Origin: Sphingomonas alba
Lineage (GTDB): Bacteria > Pseudomonadota > Alphaproteobacteria > Sphingomonadales > Sphingomonadaceae
Assembly (NCBI RefSeq): GCF_023516555.1
Contig: NZ_JAMGBD010000002.1
Location: forward strand, 186,001-250,000
Direction: 5' to 3'
DNA length: 64,000 nucleotides
Shown here: piece after piece, positions 5,237 to 57,418 of the stretch
Layout: every line of letters begins with the position of its first letter
Position numbering within the stretch: the first letter of the stretch is position 1
Notes under the pieces: generated by a model
Told to the model about the DNA's origin: nothing
The model's input: the letters and a program-made list of their open reading frames with translations, nothing else
The model's database searches: none
Program-made: the position numbers and the translations under genes

Positions 5237-5331
5237 GGGTCTTTCCGTGAAGGATTGATGCTTAGCTGAAAACGAGAACAAAAGCAGCCCGTGGGATGAT
5301 AGCTGTGGATAGACTGTGCACTAAAATCTCC

Positions 5332-5415
5332 GTCATTCCCGCGAAAGCGGGAATCCCGCTTGGGCAAACCGTCCACAGAAAAAGAAGCGGGACCCCCGCA
5401 TCCGCGGGGGTGACG
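5332..5415. repeat. REP/BIME-like inverted-repeat element
   Basis: An 84-bp element bounded by CGTCA (5332-5336) and TGACG (5411-5415). The left 31 bp and the reverse complement of the right 31 bp match except for a few bases, and each arm contains its own small hairpin (TTCCCGC/GCGGGAA on the left, CCCCCGC/GCGGGGG on the right). It fills most of the space between dnaB and dcd. It has the same architecture as the elements at 46619 and 57316. Confidence 0.8.
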
Positions 5416-11438: not shown

Positions 11439-11513
11439 TCACGCGAAGCCGCGAAGGACGCGAAGAGGATTGCAGCAAACGGCCTCCTTCGCGTCCTTCG
11501 CGGCTTCGCGTGA
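11439..11513. repeat. 27-bp perfect inverted repeat, GCGAAG-rich
   Basis: Arms 11439-11465 and 11487-11513 are exact reverse complements over 27 bp, with a 21-bp loop. Each arm contains three copies of CGCGAAG. It begins 6 bp past the stop of the M28 peptidase gene (minus strand) and lies before rnr, so an RNA transcript would form a very stable hairpin, either as terminator or mRNA 3'-end protector. Confidence 0.85.
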
Positions 11514-46618: not shown

Positions 46619-46676
46619 TATGTGTTCCCGCGAAGGCGGGAACCCAGTCTGGGCTCCTGCCTTCGCAGGAGCACAT
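46619..46676. repeat. REP/BIME-like inverted-repeat element
   Basis: The left arm (TGTGTTCCCGCGAAGGCGGG and on) and the right arm, read on the opposite strand (TGTGCTCCTGCGAAGGCAGG and on), match over 27 bp and meet at CCCAGTCTGGG. Each arm contains a short hairpin around GCGAAGGC. It starts just after the GNAT stop, inside the translation operon, so its RNA would be part of the polycistronic message. Confidence 0.75.
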
Positions 46677-47724: not shown

Positions 47725-48401
47725 GCAGTACCGTCTATTCCATTGCGACCTGGCTGATCCCGCTCGTCATCGCCATCGTCTTCCACGAGGTCGCGCACGG
47801 CCTCGTAGCGCGCCGTTTCGGTGACACGACGGCCGAAAGCCAGGGCCGTCTGACCCTCAACCCGATCAAGCATGTCGATCCAGTCGGAACGATTATCCTG
47901 CCGATCGTCCTCGCGCTCTCCCACGCTCCCATCTTCGGCTGGGCGCGGCCGGTGCCGGTTCGCTCCGACCGGATGCGCAACCCGCGCCGCGACATGATGC
48001 TTGTGGCGCTCGCCGGGCCTGCCATGAATCTCCTGCTCGCGATCAGCGCCACAGCCATCCTCGCTTTCGGCCTGTGGCTTGGCGCAGGCGACCCGATGAC
48101 GGTCGGCGGCTTCATTGCCAGCAACGCCATCAACTTCCTGCTGATCAACATCTTCCTCGCGGTCTTCAACCTCATCCCGTTGCCGCCGTTCGACGGCGGG
48201 CACGTCGTCGAAGGACTGTTGCCGCCGCCGCTGGCCGCCCGCTTCCATGCGCTCGGCCGCTACAGCCTTTTCATCCTCTTCGCCTTGCTGCTGATCGTCC
48301 CGGCAATCTGGCCGCAGGCCGATATCGTCGCCAAGGCCGTGACCCCCATCGTGAATGCCATCGCCCGGCTGTTCCTTGGAGTTGCCGGACTCAACGCCTG
48401 A
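47721..48401 (+). CDS. M50 family site-2-like membrane metalloprotease
   Basis: 226 residues with five to six transmembrane segments. Zinc-binding FHEVAHGLVARRFG (HExxH) in the first helices and the second metal motif NLIPLPPFDGGHV near residue 158. No PDZ domain, as in the short group of rhomboid-independent M50 proteases (YwhC/FtsH-type). Substrates unknown; may cleave anti-sigma factors or signal-peptide remnants. Confidence 0.92.
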   Translation: MSSTVYSIATWLIPLVIAIVFHEVAHGLVARRFGDTTAESQGRLTLNPIKHVDPVGTIILPIVLALSHAPIFGWARPVPVRSDRMRNPRRDMMLVALAGPAMNLLLAISATAILAFGLWLGAGDPMTVGGFIASNAINFLLINIFLAVFNLIPLPPFDGGHVVEGLLPPPLAARFHALGRYSLFILFALLLIVPAIWPQADIVAKAVTPIVNAIARLFLGVAGLNA

Positions 48402-48404
48402 ATC

Positions 48405-49385
48405 ATGCTCAGCGGCTGGATCATACTCGACAAGCCGGTGGGCATCGGCTCGACGCAATGCGTCTCGGCGGTGAAGCGGGCGCTGCGCGAAGCCGGTGAG
48501 CCCAAGACCAAGGTCGGCCACGGCGGCACGCTCGATCCGCTCGCCAGCGGTGTCCTTCCAATCGCCCTCGGCGAAGCGACCAAGCTCGCCGGCCGCATGC
48601 TCGACGCGACCAAGCAATATGAATTCACGATCCGCTTCGGAGAGGAGACCGACACGCTCGACGGCGAAGGCGAGCTGGTCGCCGCCAGCACCCATCGCCC
48701 GACGCGCGCCGAAGTTGAGGCCATCCTCCCCCGTTTCACGGGCCCGATAGAACAGGTTCCCCCGGCCTATTCGGCGCTGAAGATTGCCGGCAAGCCCGCC
48801 TACGCCCGCGCCCGCGCCGGCGAGCAGCTCGACATGAAGCCGCGTGCGGTGACGATTCACGATCTCAAAATCCTCCCCAGGATGGGGAGGGGGACCGCAC
48901 GCAGTGCGGTGGAGGGGCTCGCAAGCCAAACCGACGATCCCCTCCACCAGCCTGTGGCTGGTCCCCCTCCCCGTTCCGGGGAGGATCAAATCACACTCGC
49001 CGCCACCGTATCCAAGGGCACCTATATCCGCAGCCTCGCCCGCGACATCGCCCGCGCCTTGGAAACGGTCGGCCATGTCACCATGTTGAGGCGGACGCGC
49101 GCCGGTCCCTTCGACCTTGCAAGGGCGATATCGCTGGACAAACTGGCCGAAATCGCTAAGGCGCGCACCCTTGATGGGGCGGTTCTCCCGCTTGTCGCGG
49201 GGCTGGACGACATCCCGGCCCTCCCCGTCACCCCCGAACAGGCAGCGCTGCTCCGTCATGGACAGCACCTGAGCGGGACCCCCGCGAGCCCGGGGCTTCA
49301 CCTTGCGATGGACGGCGAAACGCCCGTCGCTCTGGTCGAGGTTTCGGCAATCGACGTTCGTGTCGTGCGCGGGTTCAACCTTTGA
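48405..49385 (+). CDS. truB: tRNA pseudouridine(55) synthase with repeat-encoded 39-residue insertion
   Basis: 326 residues. Makes pseudouridine 55 in tRNA. The catalytic aspartate is in KVGHGGTLDPLASGVLP, followed by KQYEFTIRFGEETDTLDGEG and PPAYSALKIAGKPAYARAR. A 117-bp inverted-repeat element (48870-48986) lies in frame between IHDLKI and QITLAATVSKGTYIRSLARD, so residues 156-194 (from LPRMGRG to GPPPRSGED) have no counterpart in other TruB proteins. The insertion falls at a strand-strand turn and keeps the downstream catalytic core (SKGTYIRS) intact, so activity is expected. About 325 residues is otherwise 35-40 longer than usual. Confidence 0.92.
   Translation: MLSGWIILDKPVGIGSTQCVSAVKRALREAGEPKTKVGHGGTLDPLASGVLPIALGEATKLAGRMLDATKQYEFTIRFGEETDTLDGEGELVAASTHRPTRAEVEAILPRFTGPIEQVPPAYSALKIAGKPAYARARAGEQLDMKPRAVTIHDLKILPRMGRGTARSAVEGLASQTDDPLHQPVAGPPPRSGEDQITLAATVSKGTYIRSLARDIARALETVGHVTMLRRTRAGPFDLARAISLDKLAEIAKARTLDGAVLPLVAGLDDIPALPVTPEQAALLRHGQHLSGTPASPGLHLAMDGETPVALVEVSAIDVRVVRGFNL
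48870..48986. repeat. 117-bp inverted-repeat element inside truB
   Basis: The element begins ATCCTCCCC and ends GGGGAGGAT. The left 48 bp and the reverse complement of the right 48 bp differ at a minority of positions, mostly in the hairpin tips. Each arm holds two small hairpins (for example CCGCACGCAGTGCGG on the left). Its length is exactly 39 codons and it contains no stop in the frame used. I recognise the GC-rich CCTCCCC...GGGGAGG form as typical of dispersed palindromes in sphingomonads and caulobacters. Confidence 0.85.
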
Positions 49386-49404
49386 ATTAGAAATGGAGTG
49401 AACG

Positions 49405-49674
49405 ATGTCGATTACCACGGAGCGCAAGGCCGCGCTGGCGAAGGAACATGGCCGGGGCAAGGGCGACACAGGTTCGCCGGAAGTCCAGGTCGCCATCCTC
49501 ACCGACCGCATTCAGACGCTGACCGAGCATTTCAAGGGCCACGCCAAGGACAATCATAGCCGGCGCGGTCTCTTGATGATGGTCAACAAGCGCCGGTCGC
49601 TGCTCGATTATCTCAAGAAGACGGACGTCGAACGCTATACCGACCTGATCGGCAAGCTCGGCCTTCGCAAGTAA
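49405..49674 (+). CDS. rpsO: 30S ribosomal protein S15
   Basis: 89 residues, full length. Seen: [36 protein letters not shown]. Primary 16S-binding protein. It follows truB by 19 bp and is the usual gene before pnp. Confidence 0.97.
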
Positions 49675-57307: not shown

Positions 57308-57315
57308 GTCCTGTT

Positions 57316-57403
57316 CGTCATCCCGGGCTTGACCCGGGATCCGCCTTTTCTTTTGCAACGGAGCCTGAACGAAGGCAGACCCCGGATCGAGTCCGGGGTG
57401 ACG
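57316..57403. repeat. REP/BIME-like inverted-repeat element
   Basis: 88 bp bounded by CGTCA (57316-57320) and TGACG (57399-57403). The left arm CGTCATCCCGGGCTTGACCC and the complement of the right arm CGTCACCCCGGACTCGATCC align over 32 bp. Each arm holds a hairpin (CCCGG...CCGGG). It lies in the leader of the oxidoreductase gene. Confidence 0.8.
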
Positions 57404-57418
57404 AAGGAGAGACATCCA

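Follow-up and report, generated by a model that had tools for sequence, protein, structure and literature searches.

Enzyme-less repeats derived from larger mobile elements are known in several forms. In REPIN/RAYT systems, paired palindromes are related to the ends of an element with a single gene for a DNA-cleaving enzyme (RAYT, a Y1 HUH transposase), and copies devoid of the enzyme are dispersed, while MITEs are short inverted-repeat derivatives of a larger element. Palindromic repeats within truB are already in print for four other species: the parts of PMC3733652 dealing with them report RPE-1 in the truB gene of R. conorii and REPs in the gene for tRNA pseudouridine synthase B in three species (S. 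maltophilia, E. litoralis and S. alaskensis). The section on truB REPs names no common site within the gene, the repeats of the CGTC type are described there as not associated with transposase genes, and the string "GIY" is absent from the main text. Neither a turn of TruB shared by palindromes nor a link of DUF559 or GIY-YIG nucleases to palindromic repeats was found in print in searches of open-licence papers, judged largely by title, which is weak evidence of absence.

The window considered here, a stretch of 64,000 nt from Sphingomonas alba, contains a further case. The 117-bp insert in its truB gene is probably a copy of a DUF559 element without the nuclease, retained where a turn of the protein tolerates extra residues.

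A palindrome in the reading frame of truB

The truB gene (tRNA pseudouridine-55 synthase; 48405..49385, + strand) is an intact ORF of 326 aa with the element in frame. Its product belongs to TruB, with 220.2 bits against the equivalog model TIGR00431 (cut-off 151.45), and is matched by both PF01509 and PF16198 in Pfam, the TruB_N match stopping at residue 158 and the C-terminal domain starting at 209. Asp44 of the GTLDP motif, which we take to be the catalytic Asp of TruB, is invariant across 37 aligned sequences, and since that alignment has 345 columns for the 326-residue query, no further large TruB insertion is apparent. The AlphaFold2 model of the protein, built from 37 sequences (pLDDT 86.4, pTM 0.80), has E. 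coli TruB (1k8w_A) as its best solved fold match. Genes with ribosomal S15 and PNPase domains (Pfam) follow downstream.

The original prediction of a palindrome in this gene was exact in its position: the inverted-repeat and ORF searches place it at 48870..48986 (+ strand), with 117 nt and in frame in the intact ORF. Its arms, given then as 48 bp, are longer and imperfect (52 nt each, 79% complementary); the left one (ATCCTCCCC..., 48870..48921) and the right one (...GGGGAGGAT, 48935..48986) lie 13 nt apart, around a spacer (48922..48934) whose place is occupied by a DUF559 gene in longer elements. The large hairpin foreseen in the RNA agrees with the predicted fold, as the element with 5 nt on each side reaches -96.6 kcal/mol versus -51.9 (sd 4.2) for its shuffles (z -10.7; 0 of 200 dinucleotide shuffles as good).

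As regards the protein, the element does encode 39 residues, as had been claimed, but the net gain is only about 32, since the loop of 42 aa in the window gene corresponds to one of 10 aa in L025, its sister truB. Compared with the empty turn, some seven residues are missing next to the insert, so the flanks do not join as cleanly as had been supposed. The location at a strand turn is upheld by the model, in which residues 161-190 fall below pLDDT 50 between the strands 147-156 and 195-202, and on this basis the 39 residues from the insert are expected to form a disordered loop at the turn of a beta-hairpin. The strand after the turn, adjoining the place that takes the insert, reads V-S-KGTY in Sphingomonadaceae at residues 202-207 of the window protein and mostly C-G-KGTY in order-level outgroups.

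One turn and many unrelated palindromes

The TruB turn is filled by many unrelated palindrome families and not by one sphingomonad repeat. Alignment of relatives at the turn, a check proposed at the outset, covered 57 same-genus truB genes, the own one included (4 of 60 same-genus relatives gave no usable truB), with long loops of 24-48 aa in 17 and loops of 10-18 aa in the other 40. Most of the 17 long loops are strong palindromes (z down to about -10), and the signatures encoded by the inserts are unrelated (ILPGTGRGT...PPPRSGED, RHPRESGGP...SRFRGND, RHPELVSGS...LKQVQHD and others), while the long loops L014 (z +0.6) and L016 (z +1.2) have no palindrome. On a tree of the flanks, from which the loop was left out, the window truB pairs with the empty L025 (support 99/98), and the filled or empty state requires at least 12 changes, or 16 with insert classes set by eye, in counts that cannot separate gain from loss. 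Filled and empty turns of sister species are too diverged to place the junction for a target-site duplication comparison. The repeated occupation of the turn by unrelated palindromes in relatives is one of the grounds for regarding the window insert as a nuclease-less DUF559 copy. More generally, the turn amounts to a natural replicate experiment in which one site of a protein has been filled many times by unrelated DNA, and it shows how mobile DNA turns into coding sequence and how much a folded enzyme can accommodate.

No long turn was met outside the family: 13 of 13 order-level loci and the 40 readable among 45 phylum loci, 53 in all, have short ones. The phylum sample consists of 50 of 139 matched genomes (the 30 best-scoring loci plus 20 picked mostly for long open frames), which gave 39 short turns, 5 long ones (in the family), 5 unreadable ones and L380, short by eye. 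Long loops are also found in 57 of 80 named truB loci, with titles including Sphingomonas, Sphingopyxis, Novosphingobium, Sphingobium and others, a proportion biased upward and unfit as a rate because the query used to rank these loci itself carried an insert. In relatives that lack the element the turn is short, rather than made up of the same 39 residues derived from unrelated DNA, and the presence of comparable inserts in many separate assemblies argues against an assembly error. The notion of a sphingomonad mobile repeat survives in one part, the existence of related arms at four other places of the genome, but not in the other, given the many unrelated families at the turn and the fact that the closest kin of the window element are the ends of DUF559 elements.

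Some long loops deserve separate mention. That of L014 (the truB of G055), with 48 aa, has no nuclease-arm match above shuffles either. Four others (L147, L349, L351 and L352) have in common a GRPDP(Y/F)DP..APL... stretch; there is no palindrome in L351 (z -1.0) or L352 (z -1.5), and in L349 a CGTC-type palindrome lies beside the GRPDP stretch. These loops are perhaps an old insert turned into fixed protein sequence.

The enzyme is maintained while the sequence of its loop is much freer: related truB genes with comparable inserts, taken as 11 overlapping pairs, have a dN/dS of 0.43-1.6 in the insert, as opposed to 0.10-0.33 in the flanks, single values being rough since the inserts have 42-53 codons. 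This weak constraint on the insert codons also favours a nuclease-less element that is merely tolerated. An insert that escapes translation, either because the ribosome skips it or because truB is decaying, is hardly credible. A hairpin of 117 nt and about -97 kcal/mol inside a coding region gives some reason to consider it, but one continuous frame runs through the turn in all 57 genus truB loci, whatever the insert, the flanks of the 11 insert-bearing pairs show the low dN/dS just given, and skipping needs no length divisible by three.

Very unlikely, too, is a hairpin selected for a function of its own in the truB region, as RNA or as DNA, acting on mRNA stability or on the coupling to the downstream rpsO and pnp. 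Its high stability (z -10.7), its recurrence at one place and an insert dS below the flank dS in 9 of the 11 pairs are what such a function would predict; this lower dS could come from constraint on the palindrome itself or from gene conversion. Against a function stand the short turn in 40 of 57 genus truB genes and in the 53 loops outside the family, the lack of sequence relationship among the insert families, the long loops without palindrome and a search of 48300-49500 against Rfam, with no match at the gathering threshold.

Nuclease genes between the arms

A search of the own genome for copies of the element, as had been advised, returned matches at four other places. Two of them bracket one DUF559 gene, and another (75% over query positions 1-48) is the right arm of a second DUF559 gene that has its left arm as well. 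Over 48 nt, the right arm of the window element matches at 96% that of a DUF559 element at G000:C1:1045950-1045997 (locus L181), and this gives the insert its best score with DUF559 arms, 78.8 bits, as against 15.7 with the best GIY arm. Its arms are therefore like those of DUF559 genes in the same genome, and this common arm sequence is an argument for a nuclease-less DUF559 copy. The ORF of the first of these genes, as listed, starts in one arm and ends in the other, and among solved chains the endonuclease-like protein 3hrl is the closest to an own-genome DUF559 protein. The fourth match is another solo copy in frame (L004:1501-1613, i.e., G000:C2:562174-562286), in a 735-aa ORF with methylmalonyl-CoA mutase and B12-binding domains. 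PADLOC gave only weak partial DpdF matches for the two own DUF559 proteins, which were not read as a defence system.

The association of arms and nucleases extends to relatives, where DUF559 matches occur in 29 of 61 genomes (the own one included). Flanking inverted repeats of at least 26 bits are present at 22 of 28 analysable DUF559 loci of relatives (30 fetched), the 28 including L184-L186, weak matches in ORFs of 1784-2081 aa and not stand-alone genes. In the phylum sample they are present at 13 of 25 loci, after 4 of the 29 fetched had proved to lie at contig edges, and the own genome accounts for one of these 13; 11 of 46 analysable DUF559 loci have no arms. Stand-alone GIY-YIG genes behave similarly in relatives (21 of 26 loci; 30 fetched, 4 at edges), though across the phylum those with arms are fewer than half (7 of 28; 29 fetched), and the palindromes that bracket them, e.g., CGTCATTCCCGCG... 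and CGTCATGCTGAACTTG..., differ from those of DUF559. Among the genus loci used for the nuclease trees, arms are found at 19 of 20 for DUF559 and 17 of 17 for GIY-YIG. No control reached 26 bits, whether random intervals (0 of 400, maximum 23.8), rpsO (0 of 132, maximum 25.6) or murI (0 of 25, maximum 22.0), with the qualifications that this threshold was chosen after the scores were known, that the rpsO control comes close to it and that the control intervals were drawn from truB and murI loci of the order and not from the phylum sample. Raising the threshold to 30 bits removes three loci (L176, L193 and L228).

In order to relate both classes of arms to the turn, the 71 distinct truB inserts of at least 20 aa were set against 86 arms taken from 43 nuclease loci, with 710 shuffles as the null. 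The best shuffle was surpassed by 62 inserts, 41 of them assigned to the DUF559 class and 21 to the GIY class, and the other-class score of these 62 never exceeded 26.5. The remaining 9 fall below the shuffle maximum and stay unassigned, 4 of them above the 99th percentile of the shuffles. As for the 17 long inserts of the genus, 11 are of the GIY class and 3 of the DUF559 class; that of L016 is GIY-type by eye and only "weak" by the shuffle comparison. The presence of a GIY-YIG-bracketing class at the same turn also speaks for a nuclease-less DUF559 copy in the window gene.

Are the nuclease genes the drivers of these repeats or their passengers? In the latter case they would be homing-type nucleases inserted in the middle of palindromes that are spread by a RAYT-like transposase, by replication slippage or by single-strand repair, and the truB element would be an ordinary palindromic repeat. 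This is rather unlikely, given that the arm family within the genus follows the nuclease phylogeny for both classes, which in turn supports the nuclease-less DUF559 reading: it needs 1 change on the DUF559 tree (n=19; shuffles mean 6.5, minimum 2) and 3 on the GIY tree (n=17; mean 7.2, minimum 4), with 0 of 500 shuffles as low in either, for arm families (D1, D2 and G1-G4) defined by motifs written after the arms were seen. Over all loci, with the long-branch row L312 left out of the 54 GIY rows, the family needs 3 changes for DUF559 (mean 10.7, minimum 6) and 7 for GIY (mean 14.2, minimum 11), and the presence or absence of GIY arms needs 4 (mean 17.9, minimum 10), again with 0 of 500 in each. 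Outside the genus, GIY arm presence tracks the tree as well (4 changes versus 9.7; 0 of 500), and the signal of the arm family is weak both for DUF559 (2 changes versus a mean of 2.9; 58 of 500 as low) and for GIY (5 versus 6.9; 12 of 500). What the passenger explanation has in its favour is that the presence of arms does not track the DUF559 tree (11 changes, shuffles mean 11.5), that no truB turn read holds a nuclease-carrying copy, and that nuclease-less copies seem commoner in some relatives, such as G012, with 32 match rows (a palindrome being countable on both strands) versus 3 DUF559 hits. Against it, the own genome has no Y1/RAYT transposase (PF01797), which places it outside REPIN/RAYT and led to the rejection of RAYT as its mobiliser, and DUF559 was seen in the plsY-murI spacers read only together with its arms. 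PF01797 is found in 2 of 37 genus genomes.

Of these 37 genomes, 16 of the 19 with DUF559 and 3 of the 18 without it have matches to the window element (Fisher p 5.5e-5), in a test that counts the arms beside DUF559 itself, ignores relatedness and scores G002, whose only hit is L185, as DUF559-negative. G008, G014 and G018 have such matches without any DUF559 hit. A point against the nucleases as mobilisers is that DUF559 proteins may serve repair; the portion of PMC12907096 concerned regards a Vsr-like DUF559 protein of Caulobacter as an endonuclease predicted to act in mismatch repair.

Further landing places, a proposed mechanism and its known parallels

The plsY-murI spacer, upstream of murI (loci L254-L278), is a second shared landing place, as it holds a DUF559 element, a solo palindrome of another family or nothing, depending on the member of the genus. 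Of 25 genus loci, 3 (G000, G012 and G009) contain the DUF559 element, with a spacing of 536-562 nt, and 16 lack it, with 100-190 nt, so that relatives show an empty site for it; the other 6 are unreadable. Both genes were named by Pfam in the own genome (G3P_acyltransf and Asp_Glu_race), and plsY by motif elsewhere. Three of the 16 spacers without DUF559 (G022, G016 and G005) have, by eye, solo palindromes of other families.

In-frame insertion is not limited to truB either, given that arms of the same family as the window element lie in frame in the linkers of other proteins: in a CoaBC-type ORF (L319), at residues 312-327 between the domains 124-294 and 329-508, and, in two species, in a hydantoinase/oxoprolinase ORF, where they separate the hydantoinase A domain from the B domain (500-540 in L336 and 434-449 in L320).

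The window itself has further palindromes at 5331-5415, 46620-46676 and 57314-57405, two of which start with CGTC or TTCGTC; the last one recurs in the genome, with six additional match rows spread over five places that, to judge from the ORF lists, lie between ORFs or at the end of one. An inverted repeat with perfect 27-nt arms at 11439-11513, between two gene-sized ORFs, is unlike the other families.

If the truB insert is a nuclease-less DUF559 copy, its parent element would comprise an arm, the gene of a DUF559 (Vsr-like) nuclease and an inverted arm, about 430-450 bp altogether. A non-autonomous copy of 117 bp would have entered truB at the beta-hairpin turn, at the cost of about seven codons, and would have been retained since the frame stays open and the extra residues, presumably translated, would form a disordered loop outside the folded core. 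The nuclease may move full and nuclease-less copies alike, either by cutting its own hairpin ends or by cutting a target whose repair would then use the element as template, and the turn would be favoured by its tolerance of added residues rather than by a DNA target sequence. The nuclease link, supported on the genus nuclease trees, provides a testable mobiliser for palindromic repeats, which are common in bacterial genomes.

Among the known systems, the coding palindromes of Nematomorpha mitochondria (PMC6649704) are likewise inverted repeats inside protein-coding genes, but they are mitochondrial and perfect, and the opening of that abstract mentions no link to a mobile nuclease. The likeness to Rickettsia palindromic elements, proposed from the start, holds in that a repeated palindrome lies in frame in an ORF, here truB, that likely codes for a functional protein; this likeness is one of description, and the window-type repeats differ in going with nuclease genes. 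CGTC/GTAG REPs resemble many GIY-class truB inserts of other species, which start with or near CGTC, whereas the window element, with its termini ATCCTCCCC and GGGGAGGAT, ends in neither CGTC nor GTAG and is thus not one of them. It would share with MITEs the nature of a short inverted-repeat derivative, but its parent enzyme is not a recognised transposase. With REPIN/RAYT, the common traits are the paired palindromes and the enzyme-less copies, and the difference is that the bracketed genes are DUF559 and GIY-YIG nucleases. At slightly less than even chances, the parallel could be carried further: the Vsr-like DUF559 family and part of the GIY-YIG nucleases, small enzymes unrelated to each other, would each drive a class of palindromic mobile elements of their own in Proteobacteria, as in REPIN-RAYT with different enzymes, nuclease-less copies would insert in frame within genes, and both classes would have a safe landing place at a single turn of TruB across Sphingomonadaceae. 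If true, the partner that the CGTC repeats have been missing would thereby be named.
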